NCBI RefSeq assembly: GCF_030913635.1
Contig: NZ_CP133188.1
Coordinates: forward strand, 2,046,001 to 2,110,000
DNA: 64,000 bases
Reading direction: 5' to 3'
From: Sedimentibacter sp. MB35-C1
Lineage (GTDB): Bacteria > Bacillota > Clostridia > Tissierellales > Sedimentibacteraceae
Below are positions 12,127 through 61,734 of this stretch, one piece after another. Each line of letters starts with the position of its first letter. Within the stretch, counting starts at the first letter, position 1. A program made the translations under genes and the position numbers. The notes under the pieces were generated by a model. The model was given only the letters and a program-made list of their open reading frames with translations, did no database searches and was not told the origin of the DNA.

Positions 12127-12139
12127 ATAAATTTAACTT

Positions 12140-15743: not shown

Positions 15744-15895
15744 TGCGACCTCCAGAGTTAAATTATAAAATGAACTAAGTGCTTAAACATTAATTTTGTT
15801 TCAAATGTAAAAAAAAACATCCCTTTACAGGTCGCCTTAATTTTTGTATCATATACTAATATTTAGAGTTTTTTATTTGCTGTGTACTTTATGTG

Positions 15896-18408: not shown

Positions 18409-18419
18409 GAGGAAATTAA

Positions 18420-18779: not shown

Positions 18780-18783
18780 ATAT

Positions 18784-18825
18784 AAAGGTATTCTGCATTT
18801 ATTTAATAATGCGAATACCTTTTTG
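18784..18825 (+). terminator. Terminator of the DUF1576-ATPase unit
   Basis: AAAGGTATT at 18784-18792 pairs with AATACCTTT at 18814-18822, with additional TGCAT/ATGC pairs inside, followed by T5. Confidence 0.8.
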
Positions 18826-18940
18826 TATTACATAAAATTTTGTTTTGATTACATATCACAACAACCAAACATTTGTTTATTTTCTTTTAATATGGTATTA
18901 TTACATAAATATTATTTGCAAAGGAGAGATTGCGGCTCAT

Positions 18941-19582
18941 ATGGACAATAACGTAAGATGGTATTTAGAAAAGCAAGTTGAAAGATGTATAAATAATTTA
19001 AGAAGACGAAATATGGCGGGCTTTTTCGTAAAAGATAGTGATGAATTAAAAGAACTTCTAAAACAGCTCATAGCTGAAAATTCAACTGTAGGCGTGGGAG
19101 ATTCAATGACACTTTTTGAGACCGGTGTTATAGATTTGCTGCGAAGCGGAAAATATAATTTTCTGGATAAATACAGAGAAGGAATTACCAGCGAAGGAAA
19201 GAAACAGATTTACATACAGAATTTTTCGGCGGATACATTCATGTGCGGCACAAATGCTCTGACAGAGGATGGTGAGCTATACAATATTGACGGAAACGGC
19301 AGCAGAGTGGCTCCAATTATATATGGTCCGAAACAGGTTATTATAGTTGCGGGTATCAATAAAATTGTGAGGACAATTGAAGAAGCAGAAAAACGAACAA
19401 GGAATTATTCAGCACCTATTGATGCAAAAAGATTAGGCAAAAATACTCCCTGCACGTCATTAGGATATTGTGTAGACTGCAAAAGTCCTGAGAGGATATG
19501 CAACGATTTTACAATTATAAGAGGACAGTTTGTCAAGGACAGAATAAAAGTTATAATAGTTGATAGTAAGCTTGGGTATTAG
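18941..19582 (+). CDS. LUD domain protein (lactate-utilisation/DUF162 family)
   Basis: A 213-residue single-domain LUD protein. Family members such as LutC act with iron-sulfur LutA/LutB in lactate oxidation, but many stand-alone copies have no defined role. Visible motifs are GVGDSMTLFETGVIDLL, the glycine-rich IDGNGSRVAPIIYGP and a C-terminal cysteine set (PCTSLGYCVDCKSPERIC) that is common in the stand-alone clostridial form and could bind metal. I used ATG 18941. The AAAGGAGAG site is 13 bp upstream, which is long, and the frame is open further upstream. Confidence 0.85.
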   Translation: MDNNVRWYLEKQVERCINNLRRRNMAGFFVKDSDELKELLKQLIAENSTVGVGDSMTLFETGVIDLLRSGKYNFLDKYREGITSEGKKQIYIQNFSADTFMCGTNALTEDGELYNIDGNGSRVAPIIYGPKQVIIVAGINKIVRTIEEAEKRTRNYSAPIDAKRLGKNTPCTSLGYCVDCKSPERICNDFTIIRGQFVKDRIKVIIVDSKLGY

Positions 19583-19644
19583 TTATATATGTAAGCAGCT
19601 GCTATTTTATATAATATTGCATTTACAAAATAAAGGGTGATAGT

Positions 19645-20538
19645 ATGCAAATAAACAGATTGTTTGAAATTATATATATTCTGCTTCAAAAGCAGACCGT
19701 AACCGCAAAGGAACTGGCCTTAAGATTTGAGGTATCACCCAGAACCATTTATAGAGATGTGGAATCGCTGTCATCTGCGGGAATACCTATTTATATGAGC
19801 AGAGGCAAAGGTGGAGGAATTTCGTTATTGCCAGATTTCGTTCTCGATAAAGCGGTTATGACTGATGAAGAAAAGGAAAAAATTCTATCATCTCTCAGGG
19901 CTGTGGGTGCTGTTGATTTGAGCGAAGAAAATAAAGCACTGCAAAAATTTATCAGCCTGTTCGGCGAAGCGTATGCGGACTGGATAGAGGTTGATTTTTC
20001 GTCATGGTACAACTGTGACGGCGAAACTAAAACTTTCCAAACTCTGAAAACCTGTGTACTTAAAAAGAAAATAGTTTCTTTTCAGTATTCAAATACAAAG
20101 GGAGAACAAATCCTTCGAACTGTAGAACCTCTGAAGCTGTGCTTTAAGGGAGGGGCCTGGTACCTTTTCGGATATTGCAAAACCCGTATGGACTTTCGGT
20201 TTTTTAAACTTCGCAGAATAAAAAACCTTGAAATTAGAGGAGAAGCGGTTGAGCATACGGCTCCGAGGCACGTGAAAGCAGAGACAGATTATAACGAAGA
20301 ATTTGTAAGTTTAAAACTTCATTTGGCCGCAGAGATGGCATTCAGAGTTTATGAAGAATTCAGCCAGTACGAAAAACAGGAGGATGGCAGCTTTATTTGT
20401 AAAATAGACTACCCAAGGGGAGAATGGCTGTTTTACTATATACTAAGCTTCGGAAAAAACTGTGAGGTTTTGGAACCCGAAGATATTCGCGTTGAAATTA
20501 AATTGCTTTTAAAGAAAATGATAAATTTTTATATTTAA
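19645..20538 (+). CDS. YafY-type HTH/WYL transcriptional regulator
   Basis: DNA-binding regulator of 297 residues. Residues 1-60 are a helix-turn-helix of the HTH_11 type (KELALRFEVSPRTIYRDVESLSSAGIPIY). The middle and C-terminal part hold a WYL ligand-sensing domain (LKLCFKGGAWYLFGYCKTRMDFRFFKLRRI seen as WYLFGYC and RFFKLRR). It starts a run of four genes with a GyrI-like protein, a radical-SAM protein and a VOC protein, which it may control. Confidence 0.92.
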   Translation: MQINRLFEIIYILLQKQTVTAKELALRFEVSPRTIYRDVESLSSAGIPIYMSRGKGGGISLLPDFVLDKAVMTDEEKEKILSSLRAVGAVDLSEENKALQKFISLFGEAYADWIEVDFSSWYNCDGETKTFQTLKTCVLKKKIVSFQYSNTKGEQILRTVEPLKLCFKGGAWYLFGYCKTRMDFRFFKLRRIKNLEIRGEAVEHTAPRHVKAETDYNEEFVSLKLHLAAEMAFRVYEEFSQYEKQEDGSFICKIDYPRGEWLFYYILSFGKNCEVLEPEDIRVEIKLLLKKMINFYI

Positions 20539-44813: not shown

Positions 44814-45716
44814 ATGAAAAAAATTATTAAAAATTTAACAATCGTTACAGTGTTAGCATTAATGCTTACTGCTTGCGCAGCACCAGCAGAAGAAACACAG
44901 GAGACACAAAAACCAGTTGAAGAAGCAAAGTATACAGCAGGAGTATATACAGGTGGAGGTAAAGGGTTTGAGGGAAGTATGACTGCAGAAGTTACACTTT
45001 CTGAAACAAAAATAGAAGATATAAAAGTTACTTCAAACGAAACACCAGATATTGGCGGCAAAGCAATGCCTCAAATAATTGATAAAATTTTGGAAACACA
45101 AAGACTTGATGTAGATACAATTTCGGGAGCAACAAAATCATCTGAGGGACTTTTAACAGCAGTTACAAAAGCTCTTCAAGAAGCTGATGTAGATGTAGAA
45201 GCATTAGGCGGTACTTTTATAGAGGAAGAAGCTGTTCTTCCTGCATCTGAACGTTTAAAAGAAATTACCAAAGAAGGTGCAGAAGAAGGAGTTAGAAAAT
45301 TTGAATTCGAAGCTGACGGATCAACATGTACTACAAGCTTTGTAATTGGAACTAATGGTACTAAAGTTACTAATGTTGAATTTTTAGGCGATCCATGTGT
45401 TGGAAATACAACAGGTATAATACATTTGATAGACGGAATGGAAATGACTGATGTTATAGAAGATTTTGAAGGTATTAAGTGTCCAGGAGCTAACGATGTT
45501 TCATCATGTCCAGATCAGCTTGCAAAAGGTCTTAAAGAAATTTTAAATCTTTATGCAATTGAAAGCGGAGACAATTCAAAAGATACAGATGAAATGTTAA
45601 ATGCCGATAATGGTGATAATGATGACAATGTTGACGGAGAAGAAGATTCAAAGAAATTTAGTGGTTGCGGAGGCAACTGTCTTGCATGTGGAGGAGCATG
45701 CTTCCCAAGATCATAA
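44814..45716 (+). CDS. FMN-binding lipoprotein fused to a TSCPD domain and a cysteine tail
   Basis: A 300-residue lipoprotein (lipobox at Cys21). Residues 38-125 are an FMN_bind domain with the attachment motif SGATKS at 104-109. Residues 160-250 are a TSCPD domain (FVIGTNGTKVTNVEFLGDP, EGIKCPGANDVSSCPDQLAKGL), a fold otherwise found in class II ribonucleotide reductases and in small stand-alone proteins. After an Asp-rich linker the end carries CX3CX2CX3C at Cys285, 289, 292 and 296. The mix suggests an exported redox protein. Its partner is unknown. A MerR regulator follows after 27 bp. Confidence 0.88.
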   Translation: MKKIIKNLTIVTVLALMLTACAAPAEETQETQKPVEEAKYTAGVYTGGGKGFEGSMTAEVTLSETKIEDIKVTSNETPDIGGKAMPQIIDKILETQRLDVDTISGATKSSEGLLTAVTKALQEADVDVEALGGTFIEEEAVLPASERLKEITKEGAEEGVRKFEFEADGSTCTTSFVIGTNGTKVTNVEFLGDPCVGNTTGIIHLIDGMEMTDVIEDFEGIKCPGANDVSSCPDQLAKGLKEILNLYAIESGDNSKDTDEMLNADNGDNDDNVDGEEDSKKFSGCGGNCLACGGACFPRS

Positions 45717-46862: not shown

Positions 46863-47552
46863 ATGGGATCAACACAACAATCACTTTCCAGAAACGTTGC
46901 AGAGCATCTTCGCAATATGATTTTAGTTGAAAAAAAATATGAACCTAGCGAAAAACTTCCAAATGAAAGAGCTCTGGCAGAACAAATGGGGGTAAGCCGC
47001 CCATGCATAAGAGAAGCTATAAAATATTTAGTTGCAAGTGGTGTTCTAACTATCAGAAGAGGTGTTGGGACATTTGTAAGTGAAAACCCAGACGTTATTC
47101 CGGATCCATTCGGTTTTAATACGGTTGGAAATCAAAAAAAATTATTATCTGATTGGTACAATGTCCGAATGATTCTCGAAGGAGAGGCTATGAAAATGGT
47201 TGTTGAAAATGCTACTGATCAAGAAATTGATAACATAAGGTATTTGGCGGAAGAAGAAAAGAAATTAATTATAGAAGATAACAAGGCTTTTGTTGAGGCT
47301 GATCAAAAATTTCATAAAGCGCTGGCGGATGCTACACATAATGATATAATGAAAAAAATACTACCATCTTTACATGAATGGATGTATTTTGGTATCATAT
47401 CAAACAATTATGAAATGCTTGGACCAGATTTGAAAACTAATGCATTTGAAAACCATGATAATATTCTGAAATTTATAATGGCACGTGATGGTGAAGGTGC
47501 TAAACTAGCAATGCGGTATCATATGATTAAAGGATTGAAAGATTTAATATAA
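46863..47552 (+). CDS. FadR-type GntR regulator of the TRAP/PanB module
   Basis: A 229-residue regulator. The GntR winged helix is at about residues 5-75 (LRNMILVEKKYEPSEKLPNERALAEQMGVSRPCIREAIKYLVASGVLTIRRGVGTFV seen as separate motifs PNERALAEQMGVSR and REAIKYLVASGVL). The FCD ligand domain follows, with the metal-binding histidines in FHKALADATHN and the region near the C-terminus. Regulators of this class answer to carboxylates. GAAAGGGG precedes the ATG. Two promoters downstream carry the matching GGTAATACC site at the start point, so it is probably their repressor. Confidence 0.93.
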   Translation: MGSTQQSLSRNVAEHLRNMILVEKKYEPSEKLPNERALAEQMGVSRPCIREAIKYLVASGVLTIRRGVGTFVSENPDVIPDPFGFNTVGNQKKLLSDWYNVRMILEGEAMKMVVENATDQEIDNIRYLAEEEKKLIIEDNKAFVEADQKFHKALADATHNDIMKKILPSLHEWMYFGIISNNYEMLGPDLKTNAFENHDNILKFIMARDGEGAKLAMRYHMIKGLKDLI

Positions 47553-47566
47553 AAGATTAGAAAAAT

Positions 47567-47602
47567 AAAAATCTGCTAACATGTTGTCAGCAGATTTTTT
47601 GA
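47567..47602 (+). terminator. Terminator after the GntR gene
   Basis: AAAAATCTGCT at 47567-47577 pairs with AGCAGATTTTT at 47589-47599, then T. Confidence 0.88.
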
Positions 47603-47658
47603 CGCTTAAATAATTATTTGTAAAATATATAATTTAGATATTATGAAAATACAGAGTA

Positions 47659-47668
47659 GTAATACCAC
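47659..47668 (+). promoter_or_regulatory. Upstream copy of the GTAATACCAC box (unit A)
   Basis: GTAATACCAC is an exact copy of the core operator sequence found 141 bp downstream. It may be an auxiliary operator. Confidence 0.4.
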
Positions 47669-47759
47669 CTCTTTAAGATGTTAGATTAAAAGTTTGATAA
47701 TAAAATATCAAAATCGTTGATAAATGAACAAATAATAATTATAATTTTTGTATTTAATA

Positions 47760-47788
47760 TTGACAATTAATAATGCATTGTGTATAAT
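47760..47788 (+). promoter_or_regulatory. Promoter of the TRAP/PanE unit (unit A)
   Basis: TTGACA at 47760-47765 and TATAAT at 47783-47788 with a 17-bp spacer, a consensus sigma-A promoter. Leader length to dctP is about 365 nt. Confidence 0.85.
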
Positions 47789-47798
47789 ACCTTCAAGA

Positions 47799-47807
47799 GG
47801 TAATACC
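47799..47807 (+). promoter_or_regulatory. FadR-type operator GGTAATACC at the start point (unit A)
   Basis: The palindrome GGTAATACC begins 11 bp after the -10 box. GT-A-N-T-AC fits the FadR-subfamily operator consensus. The same site stands at the same distance in unit B. Binding here would block transcription. Confidence 0.7.
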
Positions 47808-48160
47808 ACGAATTTGTTAATTATATAAGCTATGTGTAGTGCGAGAGTTTATGTCTTGAATATTAACGAGGAAAACGATTATGTTTTTGCTACTAATTTT
47901 AAACTATAAAGATAGAATTATAATTAGAAAAATAAGTAAAGTAATTTTTGTTTAATAATAGGATTTGGAGTGCGCTAGTTGTAATTCGTTAAATAGTAAT
48001 AAAATGTTTTTTATGTTTTGACAATAATTTGGGTGCTGTATTTGTCGGTGGAAGGAATAAGAATCAGCAAATATGATGGACATGCTTGTTATATGAATGT
48101 TCAGGGCCTGATGTTGTGGAAAACGTATTATAAATATATATATTAGGAGGAAGTAATAAA
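47808..48160. other. Long leader of the TRAP transporter unit
   Basis: About 350 nt of untranslated leader with a cre-like site, GGAAAACGATTA at 47870-47881. The same 12-mer lies in the leader of unit B. No riboswitch class is recognisable and I see no real gene. Confidence 0.5.
47870..47881 (+). promoter_or_regulatory. cre-like box (unit A leader)
   Basis: GGAAAACGATTA shares GAAAACGATT with the catabolite-response consensus TGWNANCGNTNWCA. The identical 12-mer recurs at 52279-52290, which argues for function. Confidence 0.35.
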
Positions 48161-49180
48161 ATGAAAAAGGTTATATCAATATTATTAGTGTTGTCTCTTG
48201 TGTTTTCACTTTCTGCATGTAGCGGAGGAGACAAAGATAGTTCTTCATCCGAACCGGCGGCTTCGTCTCCGTCTGATGAGAAAATAGTAATAAGGGTTGG
48301 AACTGCAACAGAACTTGATAGCCATTATGCATTGGGAGCTCAAGAGTTTGAAAAAAAAGTAGAAGAATATACTGATGGCAAAGTAGATGTTCAGATATTC
48401 CCTAGCGGTCAATTGGGGAATGAAAGAGATATGATAGAAGGTTTAAGTTTGGGAACGTTGGAAATGGTAGTTAGTTCAACTGGACCTCTCCCTAATTTTT
48501 CAAAAGATTTTCAGGTTTTTGACCTTCCGTTTTTAATTACAGACAGAGAAAAGGCATATGAGGTAATGGACGGAGAAATAGGGCAACAAATTTTAGCTAC
48601 TCTTGAGCCTCTAGGAATTAAGGCGTTGGGATTTTGGGAAAATGGATTTAGAAATGTCTCAAATAATAAACAAGAAATAGTTACGCCGGATGACATTGCA
48701 GGAAAGAAAATAAGAACTATGGAAAATCCAATACACATATCAACATTTCAACAGCTAGAAGCGATACCAACACCGATGGCTTGGTCTGAAGTTTTTACAG
48801 CCTTGCAGCAAGGTACTATAGATGGTCAAGAAAATCCTCTTGTTGTATTTAACTCGAACAAGCTGTATGAAGCTCAAAAATATCTGTCTTTGACTGGACA
48901 TGTATACTCTCCGGCGGTAATGCTTATAAGCCAATCTGCTTTTGATAGTTATCCTAAAGAAGTGCAGGATGCTATTGTAAAAGCTGAAAAAGAAGCAAGA
49001 ACTTGGGAAAGAGAGTATTGTATAAAAATGGACAATGAGCTAGTAGATACAATAAAATCATATGGTGTTACAGTAACTGAGGTTGATAAATCTTTATGGC
49101 AGGAAGCATGCCAACCGGTGTATGATCAATATGCTGATGAAATCAATCAAGATTATGTAAATGCTTTAAAAGGCAATTAA
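48161..49180 (+). CDS. dctP: TRAP transporter substrate-binding protein DctP
   Basis: Extracytoplasmic solute receptor for a tripartite TRAP carboxylate transporter. The 339 residues are the usual length. It is a lipoprotein (lipobox at Cys20). The DctP fold is clear: GTATELDSHYALGAQEFEKKVEEYTDGKVDVQIFPSGQLGNERDMIEGL is present as motifs, and the conserved carboxylate-binding arginine region is GKKIRTMENPIH. The middle has PTPMAWSEVFTALQQGTIDGQENPL. The ligand is not evident from sequence; pathway genes suggest pantoate or a similar hydroxy acid. It starts unit A. Confidence 0.95.
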   Translation: MKKVISILLVLSLVFSLSACSGGDKDSSSSEPAASSPSDEKIVIRVGTATELDSHYALGAQEFEKKVEEYTDGKVDVQIFPSGQLGNERDMIEGLSLGTLEMVVSSTGPLPNFSKDFQVFDLPFLITDREKAYEVMDGEIGQQILATLEPLGIKALGFWENGFRNVSNNKQEIVTPDDIAGKKIRTMENPIHISTFQQLEAIPTPMAWSEVFTALQQGTIDGQENPLVVFNSNKLYEAQKYLSLTGHVYSPAVMLISQSAFDSYPKEVQDAIVKAEKEARTWEREYCIKMDNELVDTIKSYGVTVTEVDKSLWQEACQPVYDQYADEINQDYVNALKGN

Positions 49181-49261
49181 ATAGAGAAAAATGGGGGGGA
49201 TGGAGAACATAAGTACTCCATCCTTTACCATGAATGATGCAAGGTGTTTAATGGAGGTACA

Positions 49262-49750
49262 ATGAAAAAAATATTAAAATTTCTAGATAATTTTGAGGAG
49301 AATGCTATAACTGTACTGCTCCCGTGTATGGTTATCATAATTTTTGTAGCAACATTTTTTAGATTTACTAAAATAATGATTATTCCTTGGTCTGAAGAAG
49401 CGGCTAGATATATGATGATTTGGATTGTATTTCTAGGAATTGGTGTTGGTGCTAAGAATAACGCACATTTTACAGTTGACAATTTTGTTAATGCATTACC
49501 TGAATCAACTAAGAAATATACATTTATGCTAAGAACTTTAATTATCTTAGGGTTTTGCGGATTTATGACATATGTTTCTGTCGGGCTTGTATCTAAGCTG
49601 TTTAAAATGGGACAAGTTACGCCTGCTATGCAGCTGCCTACATGGATAGTATATTCAGCTATGCCTGTTGGGCTAACTCTTATGCTCGTGCGTACTTTGC
49701 AGTATGCAATAAGAAAATTTGTAGATGAAAATGCACAGGAGGTGGAATAA
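49262..49750 (+). CDS. dctQ: TRAP transporter small membrane subunit DctQ
   Basis: A 162-residue protein with four hydrophobic segments, the small membrane subunit that joins the receptor to DctM. Family marks include the tryptophan and glutamate in IIPWSEEAARYMMIWIVFLGIGVG and HFTVDNFVNALP. I set ATG 49262, 7 bp after GGAGG. It precedes dctM with no gap (stop TAA then ATG), so the two are coupled. Confidence 0.93.
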   Translation: MKKILKFLDNFEENAITVLLPCMVIIIFVATFFRFTKIMIIPWSEEAARYMMIWIVFLGIGVGAKNNAHFTVDNFVNALPESTKKYTFMLRTLIILGFCGFMTYVSVGLVSKLFKMGQVTPAMQLPTWIVYSAMPVGLTLMLVRTLQYAIRKFVDENAQEVE

Positions 49751-51037
49751 ATGGCCATTACTTTATTCGGTACTTTGGGACTTATGCTGCTGCTAAATGT
49801 TCCTATTTCCATTTCTTTGGGGATAGCAGCTATTATAGCTCTTACAACTGGAACGATGAATACAAACATAGTAATAATAGCACAAAGGTTGTTCACATCT
49901 CTCGATAGCTTTCCATTAATGGCTGTGCCTTTTTTTATCCTTTCAGGAGATTTGATGGAAAAAGGAGGAATATCCAAAAGGCTAATTGAATTTGCAAGAG
50001 TTTTGCTCGGGAGGCTCCCGTCTAGTTTGTCTATTATTACAACTATAGCTTCCGCATTTTTTGGTGCAATATCCGGATCAAATGCGGCAACAGTAGCGGC
50101 AATAGGAGGAATCATGATTCCAAATATGGAAAAAGCCGGTTATCCTAAGGACAGAGCTGCAGCTGTAGCGGCTTCATCTGGAACTTTAGGGGTTGTCATT
50201 CCGCCTAGCATATCAATGGTTACATATGCTATTATCGCAAATGTTTCAATTGGAACTATGTTTATGGCTGGATTTGTTCCTGGACTTATGTTAGCATCTG
50301 TAATTATTCTCGTAGCAATTATTACTTGCGGAAAATATGAAATAAAGCAAAATGAAAATTTGACTGTAGATAAATTTTTAAGATCATTTATAGATGCCAT
50401 ATGGGCATTACTAATGCCAATAATAATTCTTGGCGGAATATACGGAGGTATTTTTACTCCTACTGAAGCTTCTGCTGTAGCTGTTGTATATTCGTTTATT
50501 GTGGCGATGTTTGTTTATAAGGAACTTAAGTGGAGAGATTTACCAGCAATATTATCCAAATCTGCTTCATCAACTGCTGCTATATTGTTTGTTGTATGTT
50601 TATCAGCGCCATTTTCTTGGCTTATGACCAGTGCTAATATTCCTACTACAATTGCAGGGGCAGTTTTAAATGCTTTTAGCAGTAAATATATAATATTATT
50701 TTTAGTTAACTTTGTTTTACTTTTCCTTGGATGTTTCTTAGAAACCCAATCAATAATACTATTGATTACGCCAATGCTTTTGCCGTTGGTTACAGGGCTT
50801 GGAGTGCATCCGGTTGCGCTTGGTATAATCATGGTAATTAATACGTCAATAGGGATGATAACACCTCCTATGGCTGTTAATTTATTTGTTGCTAGCGGGA
50901 TTGCAAAAATATCCATAGGAGATATCAGCAAAAGGATAATGCCTTTCTTGCTGTCAGAAATAGCTGTATTGTTATTAATTACTTATTTCCCTGATATAAT
51001 AACATGGCTTCCAAAGATTACGGGGCTTATGAACTAA
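49751..51037 (+). CDS. dctM: TRAP transporter large permease DctM
   Basis: A 428-residue permease of the ion transporter superfamily with about 12 hydrophobic segments, coupling carboxylate uptake to sodium or protons. Signatures are FPLMAVPFFILSGDLMEKGGIS, the SAFFGAISGSNAATVAAIGGIMIPNM loop, GTLGVVIPPSISMVTYAI and TPPMAVNLFVASGIA. It begins immediately after dctQ and precedes the PanE-like gene by 30 bp. Confidence 0.96.
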   Translation: MAITLFGTLGLMLLLNVPISISLGIAAIIALTTGTMNTNIVIIAQRLFTSLDSFPLMAVPFFILSGDLMEKGGISKRLIEFARVLLGRLPSSLSIITTIASAFFGAISGSNAATVAAIGGIMIPNMEKAGYPKDRAAAVAASSGTLGVVIPPSISMVTYAIIANVSIGTMFMAGFVPGLMLASVIILVAIITCGKYEIKQNENLTVDKFLRSFIDAIWALLMPIIILGGIYGGIFTPTEASAVAVVYSFIVAMFVYKELKWRDLPAILSKSASSTAAILFVVCLSAPFSWLMTSANIPTTIAGAVLNAFSSKYIILFLVNFVLLFLGCFLETQSIILLITPMLLPLVTGLGVHPVALGIIMVINTSIGMITPPMAVNLFVASGIAKISIGDISKRIMPFLLSEIAVLLLITYFPDIITWLPKITGLMN

Positions 51038-51067
51038 AGTAAAAAAATAATGGTAAGGAGATAAAAA

Positions 51068-51997
51068 ATGAAAGTTGCAATTATAGGCGCAGGTGCTATG
51101 GGGAGTATATATGGAGGATTTCTTGCGGAAGCAGGGAATGAAGTATATTTCCTAGATGTTTATAAGGAACATGTAGATAATATTAATCGAGATGGTCTAT
51201 GGATGGAAGGAACCAGCGGAGACAGATATATAAAAGGTATTAAGGCTACATCTGATCCAAATGAAGTTGGAGTAGTTGAGCTGGCTATAGTTTTTGTTAA
51301 GTCCACTATTACTGATATAGCAATAGCGCAAAACAAAGCTGTAATAGGAGAAGATACAATTGTTCTTACTTTGCAAAATGGGTTAGGTAATATTGAAAAA
51401 CTGGAAACTATTGTTAAGAAAGAACAAATAATAACGGGAACAACTTCTCATGGTGCTAATTTATTGGGGCCCGGAAGAGTAAAACATGCAGGTCATGGAG
51501 CTACTGTTATTGGAGAATTGGACGGTAAAGTTACAGAAAAAATAAAAGGCATTGCAAAAGTGCTTGAAGATGCAGGGCTGAAACCTGTAAAAGTATCTAC
51601 TAATGTTATGGGAATTATATGGGACAAGGTGCTTGTAAATGTTGGAATTAATGCTCTTACAGCTCTTACGGGATTAAAGAATGGACAGCTTCTTGAAAAT
51701 CCCGAAACAGAAAATATTTTAGGAGAGGCTGTAAAGGAAGCTGAAATGGTTGCAAAAGCTGCAGGAATAAATTTAGCTACTCCAAATCCGGCAGATCACT
51801 GTAAGGAAGTTGCAAGAGTTACAAAAGACAATATTTCGTCCATGCTTGCGGATGTAAACAACAAAAGAAAAACAGAAATAAGCAACATAAACGGAGCTAT
51901 TGTTAGAGAAGGGGAAAAATATAATATAGATACTCCTGTAAATAAGGTGCTTACTAATCTTGTTCTTATGAAAGAGAAAATGTATCAGATAAAGTAA
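51068..51997 (+). CDS. panE: Ketopantoate-reductase family dehydrogenase (PanE-like)
   Basis: NAD(P)-dependent interconversion of 2-hydroxy and 2-oxo acids; the classic reaction is ketopantoate to pantoate. The 309 residues match. GAGAMGSIYGG is at residues 7-17, LQNGLGNIE and the catalytic lysine in IWDKVLVNVGINALTAL follow, with the substrate-binding SSMLADVNNKRKTEISNINGA. Placement behind a TRAP importer and before PanB with one-carbon genes suggests it works as a pantoate dehydrogenase in a breakdown route. GGTAAGGAG precedes the ATG. Confidence 0.9.
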   Translation: MKVAIIGAGAMGSIYGGFLAEAGNEVYFLDVYKEHVDNINRDGLWMEGTSGDRYIKGIKATSDPNEVGVVELAIVFVKSTITDIAIAQNKAVIGEDTIVLTLQNGLGNIEKLETIVKKEQIITGTTSHGANLLGPGRVKHAGHGATVIGELDGKVTEKIKGIAKVLEDAGLKPVKVSTNVMGIIWDKVLVNVGINALTALTGLKNGQLLENPETENILGEAVKEAEMVAKAAGINLATPNPADHCKEVARVTKDNISSMLADVNNKRKTEISNINGAIVREGEKYNIDTPVNKVLTNLVLMKEKMYQIK

Positions 51998-52166
51998 ATG
52001 AGTTTTTGGGAGCTGGATAGGCTCCTCTTATTTTGCAAAATAAAAAGGAAGATGTATTACCACCAAGAAAGCATTTTGTATAATGAAATTTAGATATTGA
52101 CAATATAATATCAAACAAACCATTGATAAATAAGCAAAAAATAAAATATAAACAACTATATAACTG
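51998..52166. other. Regulatory stretch between unit A and unit B
   Basis: Holds an upstream half-match of the operator at 52054-52063 and AT-rich DNA that resembles the region before the unit A promoter, including the shared ATATCAAA and GTTGATAAAT/ATTGATAAAT stretches. It has no gene. Confidence 0.5.
52054..52063 (+). promoter_or_regulatory. Upstream operator-like box (unit B)
   Basis: GTATTACCAC differs by one base from the core GTAATACCAC located 153 bp downstream. Confidence 0.35.
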
Positions 52167-52195
52167 TTGACATTTTTATAAAGAGTATATATAAT
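52167..52195 (+). promoter_or_regulatory. Promoter of the PanB unit (unit B)
   Basis: TTGACA at 52167-52172 and TATAAT at 52190-52195 with a 17-bp spacer. Same geometry as unit A. Confidence 0.85.
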
Positions 52196-52205
52196 AATTG
52201 TCAGA

Positions 52206-52214
52206 GGTAATACC
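52206..52214 (+). promoter_or_regulatory. FadR-type operator GGTAATACC at the start point (unit B)
   Basis: The palindrome lies exactly as far from its -10 box as in unit A. AGAGGTAATACCACG is shared by both sites. Confidence 0.7.
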
Positions 52215-52278
52215 ACGTAAGAAAAACAAATTTTGCGTTTTCAAAATATTTTATGTAGAAAAGCAGTTTAACGGCAAA

Positions 52279-52290
52279 GGAAAACGATTA
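52279..52290 (+). promoter_or_regulatory. cre-like box (unit B leader)
   Basis: Identical 12-mer to 47870-47881, again preceded by TTAACG. Confidence 0.35.
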
Positions 52291-52326
52291 ATTTCGTTTA
52301 AATAAAATATAAAAGGAGATATTAAA

Positions 52327-53187
52327 ATGAAAAAGAAAATGACAATCATGGACTTCAAGAAATTTAAAGAAGAAGGTAGAAAATTTTCATATGTAACGGC
52401 TTATGATTATACAACTGCTTCTATTGTTAATGAAAGCAATTGTGAAATAATACTTGTCGGAGATTCATTGGGTATGATAATGCTTGGATATAGCGGAACA
52501 ACACCTGTTACGATGGATGATATGGTTCACCACATCAGACCTGTTGTTAAAGGAGCACCGGAAACATTTATAGTTGGAGACATGCCTTTTGGATCATACA
52601 ATGTTAGCAAAGAACAGGCGATCATGAGTGCGAACAGGTTAATAAAAGAGACAGGCTGCGATTGTGTTAAGCTTGAAGGTGGAGTTGAAATGGCTGATAC
52701 AATAGCTGCAATGGTTAAAGCAGGAATTCCTGTTATGGGACACATAGGACTTACTCCTCAGACAGCAACTTCTTTGGGCGGTTTTAGAGTTCAGGGCGGA
52801 ACACCGGAGTCAGCTGCAAAATTAATCGAAGACGCTAAAGCCCTTGAAAAAGCAGGCTGTTTTTCAATGGTATTGGAATGTGTGCCAAAAGGAGTAGCTA
52901 AAACATTGACAGAAGCTATAAAAATTCCTGTACTTGGTATTGGAGCTGGACCTTATGTTGACTGCCAGGTACTTGTTACTCAGGACTTGCTGGGAATGTA
53001 CGGCGATTTCAAACCAAAATTCGTAAAATTATTTAAAAACATAAGAAAAGAAATGGTAGAAGGATTAAATGAATTCCACAAAGAAACATTGGAAGGAACT
53101 TTCCCATCAGCTGAATATAGCTTCAATGCAAAAGTTGAAGGCTATGAGCTTGATACATTATACGGCGGAGGTAATTCCAAAAAATAA
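52327..53187 (+). CDS. panB: Ketopantoate hydroxymethyltransferase (PanB), probably run in reverse
   Basis: Transfers a hydroxymethyl group between 5,10-methylene-THF and 2-oxoisovalerate, with ketopantoate as the other partner. The reaction is reversible. The 286 residues hold the metal-binding aspartates in LVGDSLGM and VGDMPFGSY, the lysine in CVKLEGG, the histidine in GHIGLTPQ and the catalytic glutamate in LECVPK, plus IGIGAGPYVDCQVLV. All are intact, so the enzyme should work. panC and panD are absent, while fhs, folD and a formate channel follow, which points to breakdown. GGAGAT precedes the ATG. Confidence 0.92.
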   Translation: MKKKMTIMDFKKFKEEGRKFSYVTAYDYTTASIVNESNCEIILVGDSLGMIMLGYSGTTPVTMDDMVHHIRPVVKGAPETFIVGDMPFGSYNVSKEQAIMSANRLIKETGCDCVKLEGGVEMADTIAAMVKAGIPVMGHIGLTPQTATSLGGFRVQGGTPESAAKLIEDAKALEKAGCFSMVLECVPKGVAKTLTEAIKIPVLGIGAGPYVDCQVLVTQDLLGMYGDFKPKFVKLFKNIRKEMVEGLNEFHKETLEGTFPSAEYSFNAKVEGYELDTLYGGGNSKK

Positions 53188-53229
53188 TAAAGTACCTAAA
53201 CAATAAAAATCTATAGTAATGGAGGATTT

Positions 53230-54915
53230 ATGGCTCAAAAATATTTAAGTGATATAGAAATAGCACAGCAAGCAGTGCCAGAAATAATTAACAACATATC
53301 TGATAAAATGGGAATACCAGATAAGTATGTTGAAAATTATGGTAAATACAAAGCTAAAATTGATTACAGATACTTGTTGAACGATTTGAAAGATAAAAAA
53401 AATTCGAAACTGATTTTAGTAACTGCAATTAATCCTACACCTGCTGGAGAAGGAAAAACAACAACAACCATTGGATTGGGAGATGCTCTTTCAAAACTTG
53501 GTAAAAAAACGATAATTGCCCTTCGGGAGCCTTCATTAGGTCCGGTTTTCGGAGTTAAGGGAGGAGCTGCAGGAGGAGGTTATGCACAGGTTATTCCAAT
53601 GGAAGACATAAACCTGCATTTTACCGGAGATTTTCATGCTATAGGAGCTGCAAATAATCTGTTGGCTGCTATGATTGACAACCATATACATCAGGGAAAT
53701 AAATTAAATATTGACACAAGAAGAATAGTATGGAGAAGAGCTGTTGACATGAATGATAGGCAGTTGCGCCACATAGTCGATGGTTTAGGTGGAAAAAGTG
53801 AAGGTGTTACAAGAGAAGACGGGTTTGATATTACAGTGGCTTCTGAAGTAATGGCTGTATTCTGTCTTTCAAACGACATCTCTGAGTTAAAGAAAAACCT
53901 TTCTAATATAATTGTTGCTTATACAAGAGATGGACAACCTATTACGGCAGGACAGCTTAAAGCTCAAGGTGCAATGGCTGCATTGTTAAAGGATGCGCTA
54001 AAACCCAATCTTGTACAAACTTTGGAAGGAACTCCGGCATTCATTCACGGCGGACCATTTGCAAATATTGCTCACGGATGTAATTCAGTTATTGCGACAA
54101 AAATGGCAAGTAAAATCGCAGACTATACTATAACGGAAGCAGGATTCGGAGCAGATCTTGGTGCTGAGAAATTCATTGACATTAAATGTCGCAAGACAGG
54201 TTTAAAACCAAACGCTGTTGTAATAGTTGCAACAGTAAAAGCGTTAAAATATAACGGTGGGGTTCCTAAGACAGAGTTAGGAGAAGAAAACCTTGATGCT
54301 CTCGAAAAGGGACTTCCAAATCTTCTTAAGCATGTTGAAAACATTACTCAGGTGTTCAAACTTCCTGCGGTGGTTGCAATAAATAAGTTTCCTACAGATA
54401 CAGAAGCTGAACTTAATCTTATAAAAGAAAAATGTAAAGAGCTTGGTGTAAATGTGGCACTTTCCGAAGTCTGGGGAAAAGGGAGCCAAGGCGGAATAGA
54501 GCTTGCTCAGGAAGTGTTAAGACTTTCCGATAAAGAAGGCTCAATGGAATTTGCATATGAATCAAATGCTTCCATAAAAGAAAAAATAAGAGAAATATCA
54601 AAAAAATTATACGGAGCAGATGATGTTGAGTTCTCTTCTAAAGCAAATAAGGAAATAGCAAATTTTGAAAAACTTGGTTTTGGAAATCTTCCGATATGCA
54701 TGGCAAAGAATCAATATTCATTGACAGATGATCCTAAGGTTCTTGGGAGGCCAAAAGGATTTAAGATTACAATAAGAGACATTACAATTTCTGCAGGAGC
54801 AGGATTCTTAGTTGCTTTAACAGGCGATATTATGAAAATGCCAGGACTTCCAAAGGTCCCTGCTGCAGAAAGCATAGACGTAGACATGGAAGGAAAAATA
54901 ATAGGATTGTTTTAA
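53230..54915 (+). CDS. fhs: Formate-tetrahydrofolate ligase
   Basis: Links formate, ATP and THF to give 10-formyl-THF, or makes ATP in the reverse direction in purine and amino-acid fermenters. The 561 residues are the usual length. The P-loop is [18 protein letters not shown] at about residues 75-92. Other marks are [23 protein letters not shown] (in two motifs), the HFTGDFHAI folate region and the [19 protein letters not shown] end. GGAGG precedes the ATG, 42 bp after panB. In this setting it would be the ATP-yielding step. Confidence 0.97.
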
Positions 54916-54919
54916 TGCT

Positions 54920-54942
54920 AAAAGGCTGCAATGCAGCCTTTT
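54920..54942 (+). terminator. Hairpin between fhs and the formate channel
   Basis: AAAAGGCTGC pairs with GCAGCCTTTT around AAT. No long T run follows, so it may be a partial terminator or mRNA processing site that lowers expression of later genes. Confidence 0.55.
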
Positions 54943-54971
54943 AACAAAATTTCAGCAAAGGAGTTGTTGTT

Positions 54972-55715
54972 TTGAGCAATGCTTGTTTTACGCCAAAAGA
55001 AACTTCTGAAGTTCTGATTACATCAGCACAGAATAAAGTAGCTATGACTACTCGAAAAAGATTGATTATGAGTATAATGGCAGGACTTTATATTTCCTTG
55101 GGAGCGCAAGGGTTTATGGCTTCATATGACAATCCATTTATAAGAGCAGCCGTTTTTCCGGTTGGATTGATGCTCATTGTGCTTGTAGGAGGAGAACTTT
55201 TTACCGGGAACTGCCTTATGACATTTGCTTATCTTCAGAAAAAAATTACGCTTAAAGATTATATGTCAAGTCTAATGCAGGTGCTTATTGGTAATTTCTT
55301 GGGAGCACTATTAGCGGTGGCGCTTTTGTATGCAGGAGGAGTGTACAATAACACTTTTCTTTCGGAAACCATAGTAAAAATAGCTAATTCAAAGTTATCG
55401 CTTACATTTATGGAGGCAATGTACAAGGGAATTTTGTGTAATATTTTGGTTGCACTGGGTGTGTGGTTTGCCACAACTGCAAAAGATACTACAGGTAAAA
55501 TATTGGGATGCTGGTTTCCTATAATGCTTTTTGTACTTAGCGGATATGAGCATGTTGTTGCTAACATGTTTTATCTTCCAATGGCTGCAATTTTTGACCA
55601 TTCTATAACATTGTCGAAAATATTTGCTGCTAATTTTATTCCTGTAGCAATAGGCAACTTTATTGGAGGAGGAATTTTTGTTCCAGTCATGTACTTCAGA
55701 GTTTACCATAAGTAA
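54972..55715 (+). CDS. Formate/nitrite transporter family channel (FocA-like)
   Basis: A 247-residue membrane channel of the FNT family, six hydrophobic segments, moving formate, nitrite or hydrosulfide. Family marks are QGFMASYDNPFIRAAVFPVGLMLIVLVGGELFTGNCL (seen as AAVFPVGLML and GGELFTGNC) and GYEHVVANMFYLPMA. The TTG start at 54972 has AAAGGAG 8 bp upstream. Between fhs and folD it most likely exports formate. Confidence 0.92.
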   Translation: MSNACFTPKETSEVLITSAQNKVAMTTRKRLIMSIMAGLYISLGAQGFMASYDNPFIRAAVFPVGLMLIVLVGGELFTGNCLMTFAYLQKKITLKDYMSSLMQVLIGNFLGALLAVALLYAGGVYNNTFLSETIVKIANSKLSLTFMEAMYKGILCNILVALGVWFATTAKDTTGKILGCWFPIMLFVLSGYEHVVANMFYLPMAAIFDHSITLSKIFAANFIPVAIGNFIGGGIFVPVMYFRVYHK

Positions 55716-55793
55716 TATGAGGGAAATGCGCTAGAAAAATTATATTACTTAAATTAACTTAAAAAATATTTTGTTATTTAACAGGAGGGTGAA

Positions 55794-56657
55794 ATGTCTG
55801 TAGAAACAATAAGGATGGTAGGAAAACCCGTTGCGGATTTTTTAAAAGAAAATATAAAAGAAAGAGTTTCAAATTTAAAGGAAAAAGGGATTGTTCCAAG
55901 AATGATTATTATAAGAGTTGGAGCAAGGGAAGATGATGTATTTTATGAAAGAAGTATTTTAAAGAACTGCAAAAATCTCGGTATTGATGGCATTGTAAGT
56001 GAACTTCCAGCGGATGTTTCAACAGAGGTGCTTAAAAATACTATAGAGGATGCAAACAACAACAGTGAAATTCACGGCATAATGCTTTTCAGACCTCTTC
56101 CAAGCCATTTGGATCAAGAATATATATCAAACATCATAGATCCAAGAAAAGATGTTGACTGCATGTCGCCATTAAATATGGAAAAGATTTTTGAAGGTCA
56201 CAGCAAAAGATTTGCACCATGTACTCCAAAGGCAGTTGTAGAAATGCTTAAATACTATAAAGTTCCTCTTAAGGGAGCAAACATAGCTGTTGCTGGTAGA
56301 AGTCTTGTTGTAGGAAAACCACTTTCAATGCTTCTTTTAGATGAAAATGCAACAGTAACTATTTGTCACTCAAGAACAGGCAACATGAAAGATGTGACAA
56401 AAAATGCAGATATTGTTGTTGCTGCAATTGGTAAGGCAAAGTTTATGAATGAAGATTACTTTACAGAAAATACAGTTGTTATAGATGTGGGAATAAACGA
56501 TGACGGCACAGGGAGCATATGTGGTGACGTTGACTACAGCAGCACATTTGGTAAAGTCAAAGCAATAAACCCTGCAGCAGGTGGCGTAGGAACTATAACT
56601 ACTACAATTCTTCTCGATCAAGCGGTTAAAGCCTGTGAAATGTTAACAGTGAAATAA
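55794..56657 (+). CDS. folD: Methylene-THF dehydrogenase/cyclohydrolase FolD
   Basis: Bifunctional enzyme converting 5,10-methylene-THF to 10-formyl-THF with NAD(P)H. The 287 residues match. The conserved motifs are present with changes in places: the IIRVGAREDD stretch, MLFRPLPSHL, KDVDCMSPLN, FAPCTPKAVVEMLKYY and VAGRSLVVGKPLSMLLL. The catalytic lysine-bearing segment usually written YxxxK appears as FYERSILKNCKNLGI. AACAGGAGG lies before the ATG. It links PanB to Fhs. Confidence 0.95.
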   Translation: MSVETIRMVGKPVADFLKENIKERVSNLKEKGIVPRMIIIRVGAREDDVFYERSILKNCKNLGIDGIVSELPADVSTEVLKNTIEDANNNSEIHGIMLFRPLPSHLDQEYISNIIDPRKDVDCMSPLNMEKIFEGHSKRFAPCTPKAVVEMLKYYKVPLKGANIAVAGRSLVVGKPLSMLLLDENATVTICHSRTGNMKDVTKNADIVVAAIGKAKFMNEDYFTENTVVIDVGINDDGTGSICGDVDYSSTFGKVKAINPAAGGVGTITTTILLDQAVKACEMLTVK

Positions 56658-56711
56658 AGCATCAAAATATACAAGTGTAAATTAGGTATAAAAATATATT
56701 AAATATAAATT

Positions 56712-56803
56712 AGAGTAGAAACCAGTGCGTTAAGTACCGAAGGATGGGAGGTTGCCTTCGGGCGAGAAGCTATTAAGCTTGCGGTACAGTTTCGCATCCG
56801 CTA
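56712..56803 (+). ncRNA. Tetrahydrofolate riboswitch upstream of folT
   Basis: GAGTAGAAACCAGTGCGTTAAGT opens the P1/P2 side. GGATGGGAGGTTGCC and GGGCGAGAAGC follow, then TTGCGGTAC and the closing CGCATCCGCT at 56793-56802. These fit the THF-I riboswitch consensus, including the GCGTTAAGT and GCATCCGC blocks. It precedes a folate-transporter gene and ends before its ribosome site, so it probably works on translation or termination. Confidence 0.88.
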
Positions 56804-56844
56804 TTTATTTGCTTCTTTCGTAGTTGGAACATGAAAGGAGATTT

Positions 56845-57375
56845 ATGAACAAAATATCATTAAAAGAATTAAAATTCGATTCAAATTCCGTTGCAATGGC
56901 AGGTATGTTTGTTGCTATGGAAATAGTTTTATCAAGATTTTTTTCAATTTCAGCTTGGAATATCAAAATAGGCTTTGGCTTTGTTCCTGTTGTAATAGCT
57001 GCAATGTTATTGGGACCTGTTAAGGGTGGAATAGTTGCGGCTTTAGGGGATTTTTTTGGAGCTATTTTATTTCCCATTGGAGCATATTTTCCTGGATTTA
57101 CCTTAACGGCATTTGTTACGGGAATTGTATACGGTGTTTTCTTGCATGAGAAGCAGTCTATCGCAAGAATTTCAGTTGCAATTGGAATTAATCAGCTCGT
57201 ACTGAGTTTGCTTTTAAACACATTTTGGATATCCATATTGTATGGAGCTCCTTACAAGCCTTTGCTTCTTACCAGGATGATGCAGTGTGTTTTTTTAATA
57301 CCGGTGCAGCTTGTTACAATATTTGTGATTTCGAAATCTGCAATAAGAAAATTGGCTTTTCAAGTTAATAGATAA
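56845..57375 (+). CDS. folT: Folate ECF transporter S component FolT
   Basis: A 176-residue membrane protein of about five or six hydrophobic segments, the substrate-binding subunit for folate that plugs into the shared ECF transport module. The start region (NSVAMAGMFVAMEIVLSRFFSISAWNIKIGFGFVPVVIAAMLLGPVKGG as motifs LSRFFSISAWN and KIGFGFVPVV) and NTFWISILYG match FolT. ATG 56845 has AAAGGAG at 56833-56839. The THF riboswitch just upstream supports the substrate. It brings in the cofactor of the neighbouring one-carbon route. Confidence 0.93.
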   Translation: MNKISLKELKFDSNSVAMAGMFVAMEIVLSRFFSISAWNIKIGFGFVPVVIAAMLLGPVKGGIVAALGDFFGAILFPIGAYFPGFTLTAFVTGIVYGVFLHEKQSIARISVAIGINQLVLSLLLNTFWISILYGAPYKPLLLTRMMQCVFLIPVQLVTIFVISKSAIRKLAFQVNR

Positions 57376-59982: not shown

Positions 59983-61734
59983 TTACCTGTTTGCAATACT
60001 TTTGTTGTAGTCATTTAATTTACGGTATAAAGTCCTTAGACCCATTCCCAGCTCTTCTGAAGCAAGAGTTTTTCCTTTAACATCCCAGCCGTACCTGTCT
60101 ATTGTTTCGATTATTATTTTATGCTCGTTTTCTTTTATAGGATTTACGGCGGCAGATGTATCTGCTTGTTTATCCTCGTAGAAGTCAAGCGGCAAATCCG
60201 CCGGTGTGATTACTTCTTTTTCGGTTATGTTTACACAATATTCAACTACGTTTTCAAGCTGTCTTATATTGCCGGGCCAATATGAATTGTTCAGTATATC
60301 ATATACTTTGTTGTCAAAACCCAATATTTGTTTTTTTAATTTTCTATTATAAAATTTCAAAAAATCGTTAGCTAATATGCTTATATCTTCACGTCTTTGC
60401 CTTAGAGGAATTAGTTTCATAGGTATTACATTCAGTCTGTAAAACAAATCTGAACGGAAGCTTTTTTTTTTTATCATTTCTTCAAGGTTTCGATTTGATG
60501 CTGCAATTATTCTCACATCTACATTTATAGGAGTGATACCTCCTACTTTTTCAAAAGTTGATTCCTGTAAAACGTTTAAAAGTTTAGCTTGCATGTTTAT
60601 GGGAATTTCACTTATTTCGTCAAGAAAAAGCGTTCCTTCATTTGCAAGTTCGAACTTACCGGGTTTTCCGTACTTGCTTGCACCGGTGAAAGCTCCGGCT
60701 TCATATCCGAAAAGTTCACTTTCAAAAAGATTTTCTGGTATGCTCGTACAGTTTACAATAATAAAAGGTTTATTTTTTCTTTTGCTTTCATAGTGAATGG
60801 CCTTGGCAAGAAGCCCTTTTCCGGTTCCTGTTTCGCCGGATATAAAGACGGTTGAAGGGCTGTTTGCTATTTTTTTAATAGTTTTTTTTATGAGCTTAAC
60901 ATGTTCGCTTTTACCTTTAATGCTGTCAATGTTATAAGGCTGGTCATTTTTAATGTTTAAATTAACGCTATCTGAGAGAATGGCTTTGTTGTAGTTTATT
61001 CTTATAGCAGTTCCGACAGATACATCATTGTTTCTTAGAGGAGTTGAAAAAACTCTGACAGGAGAATCGTTAATTTTAACTTTATAATTTGATATTGACC
61101 TTCCGCTTAAGATGACCGAGACTACATTGTTTGGAAAAAGCTGATGAATATTTTTGGTGTTCATACCGCAGGATGCAAAAAAATCAAGTGCTGCGGCATT
61201 TATTATTTCAATGTTTCCCTCTGCGTCTGTAGTTATAAACCCATCTTCTGACAAATCAAGTATTGTGGTTAGAGATGATTTTGAGGCTGTAGAATCAAAT
61301 GCTTTGTATTGCTGCATTATAAAAAGCGACAGAAGGTGTGCGAATTGCTCGATAATATTTGTGTAGTAGTCGATATTGTTGACAATTCTGTCATGGCTTT
61401 CCTTGGAAAATGAAGTGAAAGAAAGTACTCCAAGGGGTTCTGTGTTAACTGTAATGCTTTTTAGTATTTCAATTGTTGAAGGACAATTATCTTTAAATCT
61501 GCATCCCAAGCAAGCTGCCATATGACCGGGATTATTTACTGTCACATTTCCTTTCATTATTACTTCCTGAATGGAAGGAGAATGAACAACGCGCCCTTTG
61601 ATTCTCAAATAGGATTCGGTGCTTATAACTAAATTGCTTTCGGTATCAAAAACAGCATAGTCAATATTAAAGATACTTTTAATTATGTTTAAAATATTTT
61701 TTATTTCATTTTCGTAATTATATAAGTTTATCAT
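59983..61734 (-). CDS. Sigma-54-dependent activator with a cysteine-bearing sensor domain
   Basis: A 583-residue enhancer-binding protein. Residues 1-140 form an N-terminal sensor with CX2CX5C at Cys75, Cys78 and Cys84 (CLGCRFKDNC), possibly metal- or redox-responsive. A PAS domain lies at about 150-260. The AAA+ domain (about 280-510) has Walker A GETGTGKGLLAK, the GAFTGA loop intact and Walker B GTLFLDEI. A Fis-like helix-turn-helix ends it (RYGWDVKGKTLASEELGMGLRTLYRKL). It diverges from the SDR gene, which has a -24/-12 promoter, and is surely its activator. Confidence 0.95.
   Translation of the reverse strand: MINLYNYENEIKNILNIIKSIFNIDYAVFDTESNLVISTESYLRIKGRVVHSPSIQEVIMKGNVTVNNPGHMAACLGCRFKDNCPSTIEILKSITVNTEPLGVLSFTSFSKESHDRIVNNIDYYTNIIEQFAHLLSLFIMQQYKAFDSTASKSSLTTILDLSEDGFITTDAEGNIEIINAAALDFFASCGMNTKNIHQLFPNNVVSVILSGRSISNYKVKINDSPVRVFSTPLRNNDVSVGTAIRINYNKAILSDSVNLNIKNDQPYNIDSIKGKSEHVKLIKKTIKKIANSPSTVFISGETGTGKGLLAKAIHYESKRKNKPFIIVNCTSIPENLFESELFGYEAGAFTGASKYGKPGKFELANEGTLFLDEISEIPINMQAKLLNVLQESTFEKVGGITPINVDVRIIAASNRNLEEMIKKKSFRSDLFYRLNVIPMKLIPLRQRREDISILANDFLKFYNRKLKKQILGFDNKVYDILNNSYWPGNIRQLENVVEYCVNITEKEVITPADLPLDFYEDKQADTSAAVNPIKENEHKIIIETIDRYGWDVKGKTLASEELGMGLRTLYRKLNDYNKSIANR

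Follow-up and report, generated by a model that had tools for sequence, protein, structure and literature searches.

A predicted module for anaerobic pantoate breakdown through reversed PanE and PanB in Sedimentibacter and related bacteria

We describe a run of ten genes, all on the + strand, at positions 46863-57375 of a 64,000-nucleotide stretch of the Sedimentibacter sp. MB35-C1 genome (contig NZ_CP133188.1, positions 2,046,001 to 2,110,000; hereafter the window). With a probability of roughly 0.8, we propose that this run is a substrate-induced catabolic set for pantoate, in which PanE and PanB, two enzymes of pantothenate synthesis, would operate in reverse and yield a branched acid and formate. 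The stereoform used is probably D-pantoate. Pantoate or pantothenate is the most likely substrate, since the pantothenate symporter PanF is encoded both in sister loci and elsewhere in this genome. We also favour, less firmly, the broader view that fermentation of vitamin B5 is widespread among anaerobes of gut, rumen, digester and sediment, which would import it through PanF, split it with an amidohydrolase and run PanE and PanB backward to isobutyrate, formate and CO2.

In the proposed route, the tripartite ATP-independent periplasmic (TRAP) transporter would take up pantoate; when both PanF and an amidohydrolase are present, pantothenate would be imported and split into beta-alanine and pantoate. 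PanE would oxidize pantoate with NAD+ to ketopantoate, which PanB, opposite to its textbook direction, would cleave into 2-oxoisovalerate and methylene-tetrahydrofolate (methylene-THF). FolD, together with FchA in some relatives, would oxidize the one-carbon (C1) unit to formyl-THF, Fhs would convert formyl-THF to formate with a gain of ATP, and a channel would export the formate. VOR would turn 2-oxoisovalerate into isobutyryl-coenzyme A (CoA), from which Ptb-Buk in the host genome, or a CoA transferase in a relative, would release isobutyrate with a second energy gain. By arithmetic, the net reaction would be pantoate + 2 H2O -> isobutyrate + CO2 + formate + 3 H2 equivalents, with about 2 ATP. 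A GntR/FCD regulator is predicted to block both halves of the gene set at the operator-like sequence GGTAATACCAC until an acid inducer arrives. The enzyme chain as far as formate had been suggested in a first-pass annotation of the window; it is now supported by a PanB clade free of neighbouring PanC and PanD, by PanF, amidohydrolase and VOR neighbours, by an Asp-type PanE, by a promoter/operator array shared by the two half-operons, and by a near-complete gene run in a cultured relative.

Gene content and regulation

Profile scores assigned each of the ten genes to its expected family and agreed with the order and family names of the first-pass annotation, from a FadR-type regulator to a folate importer. 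The FadR-type (GntR/FCD) regulator, likely the repressor of the module (46863..47552; PF00392 70 bits, PF07729 83.7 bits), is followed by the three TRAP components: the solute-binding protein DctP, a predicted pantoate binder (48161..49180; TIGR00787 275 bits, cut-off 175), the small permease DctQ (49262..49750; PF04290 110, cut-off 28) and the large permease DctM (49751..51037; TIGR00786 443, cut-off 268). Next come a PanE-family dehydrogenase, probably of the NAD type (51068..51997; TIGR00745 275 bits, cut-off 141), the ketopantoate hydroxymethyltransferase PanB, predicted to cleave ketopantoate (52327..53187; TIGR00222 304 bits, cut-off 207.6), and the formate-tetrahydrofolate ligase Fhs (53230..54915; NF010030 929, cut-off 652). 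A formate/nitrite-family (FNT) channel, the predicted formate exporter (54972..55715; PF01226 235, above cut-off; TIGR00790 214, below its cut-off of 232), the methylene-THF dehydrogenase/cyclohydrolase FolD (55794..56657; PF02882 182 and PF00763 111, both above cut-off) and the folate-family ECF S component FolT (56845..57375; TIGR04518 143.9 bits, cut-off 60) complete the run. Ribosome-binding sites place the probable starts of DctQ and FolT at 49262 and 56845; the open reading frame (ORF) listing began at GTG 49244 and TTG 56824, respectively.

Between the formate channel and folD, FchA is encoded as 209 aa in locus L057 and as 106 aa in locus L058, both from relatives, and is missing from the window (55715-55794). 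The pattern looks as though the gene were on its way out once FolD covers both steps.

The host genome is a single contig of 3.62 Mb with one panB and four full-length copies of fhs. Neither panC nor panD was found anywhere in it, which extends to the whole genome an absence first remarked on for the stretch alone, and leaves no panCD set that could be controlled together with the module.

The module likely comprises two transcription units, predicted as dctPQM-panE and panB-fhs-fnt-folD, with folT perhaps in the second. Each is preceded on the + strand by a promoter made of TTGACA, a 17-base spacer and TATAAT (47760..47788 for dctPQM-panE; 52167..52195 for panB-fhs-fnt-folD), and the operator-like GGTAATACCAC lies 10 bases past the -10 box in both cases (47799..47809 and 52206..52216, both +). 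The array TTGACA-17-TATAAT-10-GGTAATACCAC thus heads both half-operons, and a second, imperfect site is found about 140-155 bases upstream of each promoter, at 47656..47668 for dctP (one mismatch to GGTAWTACCWC on either strand) and at 52051..52063 for panB. In the 3.62 Mb genome, an exact TATAAT-N10-GGTAWTACC occurs at two places, which are the two module promoters. Allowing up to one mismatch gives eight places, the module's two included, and allowing up to two gives 47, no more than the 49 of a reversed control. The array is kept at both promoters in the window, L057 and L058 (6 of 6 promoters), and in L058 the bases between its three elements have changed while the elements themselves are kept. 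The core site alone is weak, as 2 of 100 shuffles of the window likewise held two. The array and its conservation are convincing and more than chance; the core site alone is not. From these sequences we infer that the GntR/FCD protein encoded just upstream is likely the repressor of both half-operons, acting via GGTAATACCAC.

A fragment of the Wood-Ljungdahl pathway was put aside as an explanation of the run: this is one of four full-length Fhs, and it stands with PanB under a shared operator; CODH/ACS was not searched for.

The PanB clade and its PanE partner

PanB loci were collected by a scan of 84,980 species genomes, which gave 79 loci (of 88 confirmed stretches, the 80 best were kept), and from 291 genomes of the same class, of which 85 had a PanB match and 15 had their PanBs placed in the tree; given these two selections, divergent members of the clade are under-sampled. 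Rows L038, L039 and L040, which share their contigs with L065, L066 and L064, and the unplaced L052 were dropped, as were PanB matches below 200 bits and PanB ORFs with at most 240 or at least 420 residues. In a 95-row tree, built by a quick method without bootstrap and with a long-branch warning that includes L045 and L044, 76 rows formed one clade (SH-aLRT 97), separate from 17 canonical-type PanBs and from L052. These rows are the window and 75 others, two of them supplied by L060. Members are mostly Clostridia, with Synergistota and Sporomusa also present by record titles, and the closest named relative, whose PanB is 99% identical, is a Sedimentibacter metagenome-assembled genome (L057).

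Residues D45, D84, K112, E114 and E181 (E. coli numbering, with the E. coli yardstick checked against 1m3u) are kept in 96 of 96 sequences. These are the Mg- and substrate-binding active-site residues of the E. coli enzyme, and their presence agrees with the earlier observation of intact active-site motifs in the window PanB. Among the substitutions that distinguish the clade, 70 of 72 close members have Cys at E. coli position 210, where 16 of 16 controls have Gly, and 72 of 72 have Phe at position 247, where 16 of 16 controls have Tyr.

The window PanE carries Asp where E. coli PanE, checked as the yardstick, has Arg31, and all 48 readable PanE sequences have Asp or Glu there. The two nearest kinds of solved homologue among the matches listed have Arg at this position or one place off. 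Arg31, at the end of strand 2 of the E. coli enzyme, presumably binds the NADP phosphate. The PanE of the clade probably uses NAD, to judge from this position, which would suit oxidation.

Gene neighbourhoods

Neighbours within 8 kb of PanB were first counted from greedy non-overlapping ORFs and blastp groups, and were recounted by phmmer over all ORFs of at least 70 aa; the recount is given unless stated. PanC was found in 0 of 75 clade rows versus 16 of 17 canonical ones, PanD in 0 versus 12, and a DUF2520 protein in 0 versus 17. PanE showed the opposite distribution (48/75 versus 0/17), and any C1 gene (Fhs, FolD, FchA or FNT) was present in 22 clade rows versus 1 canonical row, with Fhs itself in 16 versus 1. 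PanF (16), VorB (11), FolD (15), FNT (10), FchA (9), FolT (5), DctP (12), Amidohydro_3 (19), M20 (11), S58 (8) and a cyclase family (8) all occurred in clade rows and in none of the 17 canonical rows. A genome search for panB beside fhs, folD and DctPQM but apart from panC and panD had been suggested in the first pass, and these figures show that such associations recur. Fisher tests on the first counts, with 17 controls, gave p values of 2e-15 for PanC and 5e-7 for PanE. With four fhs per 3.6 Mb, chance would put fhs near PanB at about 2% of sites, or about 1.5 of 75 rows, compared with the 16 observed. Among the 30 clade rows with 8 kb on both sides, PanE was present in 22, PanF in 8 and panC in none. 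The module recurs yet varies, and some clade PanBs lie in other contexts.

The recount changed the figures modestly. PanC rose from 15 to 16 and PanD from 10 to 12 among the 17 canonical rows; among clade rows, Fhs rose from 15 to 16, FNT from 9 to 10, any C1 gene from 21 to 22, Amidohydro_3 from 14 to 19 and S58 from 7 to 8, M20 fell from 14 to 11 under a higher threshold, and rows with neither PanE nor a C1 gene fell from 20 to 19. PanF rows numbered 16 in both counts, with L081 and L082 added and L059 and L061 removed. The L059 and L061 symporters, first grouped with PanF, are 21% identical to host PanF.

All 17 canonical loci (L046-L051, L056, L125-L132, L134 and L135) have the DUF2520/Rossmann protein near panB, and PanE is near panB in none of them. 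By analogy, this protein may be the ketopantoate reductase of canonical panB operons; PanG is a second kind of ketopantoate reductase (PMC4207893, in the part available).

Clade PanBs were found in 9 of the 15 placed class genomes (G000, G141, G244, G111, G157, G155, G022, G134 and G269). Three of these, the window's genome included, have no panC. The other six (G111, G157, G155, G022, G134 and G269) have it, never beside the clade PanB: it lies on a different contig, or 340 kb off in G155. Five of the six also carry a second PanB that shares 46-48% identity with that of the window, and G111 carries none. Because panC never adjoins the clade PanB and a second, less similar PanB is present in five of six genomes, the PanB copies look specialized.

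Plain CoA biosynthesis was put aside, since panC and panD are missing both from the host genome and from the 8 kb around clade PanBs. A variant in which the genes run in the biosynthetic direction, with imported formate converted to methylene-THF by Fhs and FolD, PanB and PanE making pantoate, and the TRAP transporter importing a precursor acid, appears highly improbable. Its enzymes are reversible in principle, PanB and PanE are named for synthesis, and FNT channels can run both ways; however, the host has no panC or panD to use the pantoate and has PanF for importing the vitamin, while six of the nine sampled genomes with a clade PanB keep panC at another site, and a second PanB is present in five of these six. 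The Asp in place of Arg31 in PanE, and the PanF, amidohydrolase, VOR and CoA transferase genes that adjoin sister genes, also argue against it.

Completion of the route in relatives and in the host genome

The most complete arrangement was found in L085, from the cultured species Sinanaerobacter chloroacetimidivorans, where a run at 5914-20124 lies on one strand with a largest gap of 105 bases. Its order is Fhs, FchA, FolD, FNT, PanB, PanE, an unnamed protein (group c23), ferredoxin, VorB, VorA, VorC, YhdT, PanF, Amidohydro_3 and CoA transferase. PanF scored 612 bits (cut-off 328), VorB 494 (399) and the butyryl-CoA:acetate CoA transferase model TIGR03948 867 (675); the VOR beta subunit, at 128 (262), and FchA, at 195 (275), fell below their NCBIfam cut-offs, with FchA above that of Pfam. 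Read from its gene families, this run would encode pantothenate import and splitting, pantoate oxidation, ketopantoate cleavage, formate release, 2-oxoisovalerate oxidation and isobutyrate release. Hydrolysis is the least certain of these steps, because no tested relative of the L085 amidohydrolase was found. In L058, the module is laid out like that of the window, and Amidohydro_3-YhdT-PanF begins 3.2 kb downstream of folT; its PanF falls outside the 8 kb counted and is truncated where the locus stops.

Elsewhere in the host genome (G000:C1), YhdT, PanF, an amidohydrolase and PucR are encoded together at about 1,262,900-1,268,200. The host PanF scored 378 bits against an equivalog cut-off of 328, and 14 of 16 scanned PanF-like proteins from the host and sister loci reached E 1e-96 to the PanF equivalog model; the two that did not are probably the L059 and L061 symporters. 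Ptb, Buk and VOR are encoded at about 2,556,200-2,561,500 (Buk 558 bits, VorB 540, Ptb 425). Since both sets are present, the proposed route can be closed within the host genome.

A salvage role would share the route as far as the PanB step and then direct 2-oxoisovalerate to valine and leucine, and C1 units to purines, without energy gain. An IlvE-like aminotransferase, named from its sequence without a family search, occurs within 8 kb of PanB in 4 of the 75 rows, and FolT would help to provide folate. In E. coli, PanB damages folate, a link through which panB has been tied to folK (PMC4814558, in the part available), and such damage may explain the folate importer in the module. Salvage nevertheless seems unlikely, as Fhs beside a formate channel points to formate release, and VOR with a CoA transferase points to acid production.

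Substrate evidence from the TRAP transporter

The solved sequences that best match the window DctP are 4nq8, 4pdh, 4p9k/4pak and 4pdd (245-265 bits); these are its nearest solved TRAP proteins, but proteobacterial by title. The predicted DctP model reached a middling mean pLDDT of 73, and the Foldseek ranking based on it only repeats the ranking by sequence. DctP residues R164, R185, N225, W208 and E88 align with R152, R173, N213, position 196 and position 76 of 4p47, whose ligand-binding positions are given in PMC11668362 (Biochem J 2024). In the part of that article available, ten solved homologues are compared, all of which hold pantoate or erythronate except the named open, sugar and orotate structures; its main text, to the same extent, does not name entries 4nq8, 4pak and 4p9k. 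Pantoate/D-erythronate is also among the TRAP ligands listed in a review (PMC5812351, likewise in part).

The same chemistry could act on a different substrate: 2,4-dihydroxybutyrate or a similar 2,4-dihydroxy acid would yield pyruvate or another 2-oxo acid plus methylene-THF. The window stretch itself contains no PanF, and engineered pathways use PanB on 4-hydroxy-2-oxobutanoate. Such TRAP proteins bind erythronate as well as pantoate (PMC5812351, PMC11668362, both in part). On the other side, PanF-like symporters lie within 8 kb of a clade PanB in 15 loci, 13 of these 15 proteins reached E 1e-96 to the PanF equivalog model when scanned, L058 has PanF downstream of this same TRAP module, and VorB is by model name a branched 2-oxo acid enzyme. 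We therefore consider a non-pantoate substrate improbable. The caution on the exact substrate expressed in the first-pass annotation is still valid for loci that, like the window, have only the TRAP transporter.

Discussion

Several points weigh against pantoate catabolism and explain our reserve. The substrate, the direction of the reactions, the pairing of regulator and operator, the inducer and the products are all deduced from sequence. Oxidation of pantoate with NAD+ is uphill and needs a pull. The solved 4nq8, 4pdh, 4p9k/4pak and 4pdd are no more than probable pantoate or erythronate complexes, and the matching DctP ligand residues are general to this TRAP branch and no proof of pantoate. 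The Asp of the clade PanE was compared without a biosynthetic PanE of these bacteria, as the 17 canonical loci have none. VOR and Ptb-Buk also belong to the ordinary equipment of amino-acid fermentation and are no proof alone. An orthologue of the relatives' Amidohydro_3 group was not found in the host genome (best 28% identity), and the PanF-adjacent amidohydrolase (L161) is therefore our local candidate for splitting pantothenate. Fisher tests on the first counts, with only 17 controls, were weaker for PanF (0.036), C1 genes (0.063) and VorB (0.21). In 19 of the 75 clade rows, neither PanE nor a C1 gene was present within 8 kb. Seven of the 19 (L063, L064, L067, L081, L103, L109 and L113) have full flanks, so that a contig end cannot account for these seven, and only 7 of the 30 rows flanked by 8 kb on either side have a C1 gene. 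Finally, most ligands of such TRAP proteins came from co-purification, as the available part of PMC11668362 warns.

The proposed pantoate catabolism resembles several known systems. It shares the PanB and PanE families, and all PanB catalytic residues, with canonical pantothenate synthesis (PanB, PanE or PanG, PanC and PanD), but differs in that clade PanBs have no PanC or PanD within 8 kb (0/75), PanE is of the Asp type, and genes for import, for oxidizing C1 units and for releasing formate accompany the two enzymes, as does VOR in some relatives. Serine breakdown by SHMT, Fhs and formate release is alike in passing a hydroxymethyl group to THF and on to formate with ATP; here, PanB would replace SHMT, and the leftover carbon would be 2-oxoisovalerate rather than glycine. 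The host genome carries an SHMT-Fhs-FNT run (L053:7699-11614), parallel in layout to PanB-Fhs-formate channel. Branched 2-oxo acids are oxidized by VOR with Ptb-Buk, encoded in the host genome, and pantoate would feed this route besides valine. In aerobic Pseudomonas fluorescens, pantothenate is likewise split and pantoate consumed, whereas that route proceeds via pantoate 4-dehydrogenase and aldopantoate and not through PanB.

Candidates for pantothenase (EC 3.5.1.22), on the basis of family and gene context, are the Amidohydro_3, M20 and S58 groups; this activity is known in P. fluorescens, and its protein had not been identified as of 2023 according to the available part of PMC10393543. The part available of a 2025 review of gut-bacterial CoA metabolism (PMC12570885) gives no route for pantothenate breakdown, and panBCD has been introduced into acetogens (PMC6505512, in part). 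Among the open-licence PMC papers listed, none describes anaerobic pantoate or pantothenate fermentation or natural PanB reversal, and the first-pass annotation likewise knew of no established account of such a catabolic set.

If the proposal is true, anaerobes have a dedicated means of feeding on a vitamin, in which the enzymes that normally make it work backward and are linked to C1 transfer on folate and to the release of formate, and candidate genes for pantothenase become testable. In that case, panB by itself would be an unreliable sign that a microbiome makes vitamin B5, some of the PanB that microbiome data label as a synthesis enzyme would instead destroy the vitamin, and competition for vitamin B5 in gut and rumen communities would be suggested. 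Our comparison turns what was one unusual operon into a module that recurs in variable form, some members of which likely also take up and hydrolyse vitamin B5, and the near-complete run in cultured S. chloroacetimidivorans makes the route directly testable.

Additional observations

Other genes recur near clade PanBs. A cyclase-family (PF04199) hydrolase is found at L104:10885-11583 and in seven other loci, with a median identity of 62% among the eight; one guess is a lactonase for pantolactone. An S58 peptidase and an OPT transporter recur (for example L119:15595-18407), and pantothenate or a related amide is a possible substrate of the peptidase. A class III aminotransferase lies within 8 kb of the clade PanB in L041, L045, L060 and L069, accompanied by an aldehyde dehydrogenase in L041 and L069; these enzymes could use the beta-alanine half of the vitamin.

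A sigma-54-type site precedes Amidohydro_3-YhdT-PanF in L058, and none was found in the 600 bases before host panF. Downstream of folT in L058 lies an ORF with sigma-54 activator motifs by eye, and L057 has an ORF of the same group. The window encodes a sigma-54 activator at 59983-61734 on the minus strand. On the other side of the module, the gene at 44814-45716 combines a lipoprotein-like start with an FMN-binding domain and a TSCPD domain, and adjoins a MerR regulator.

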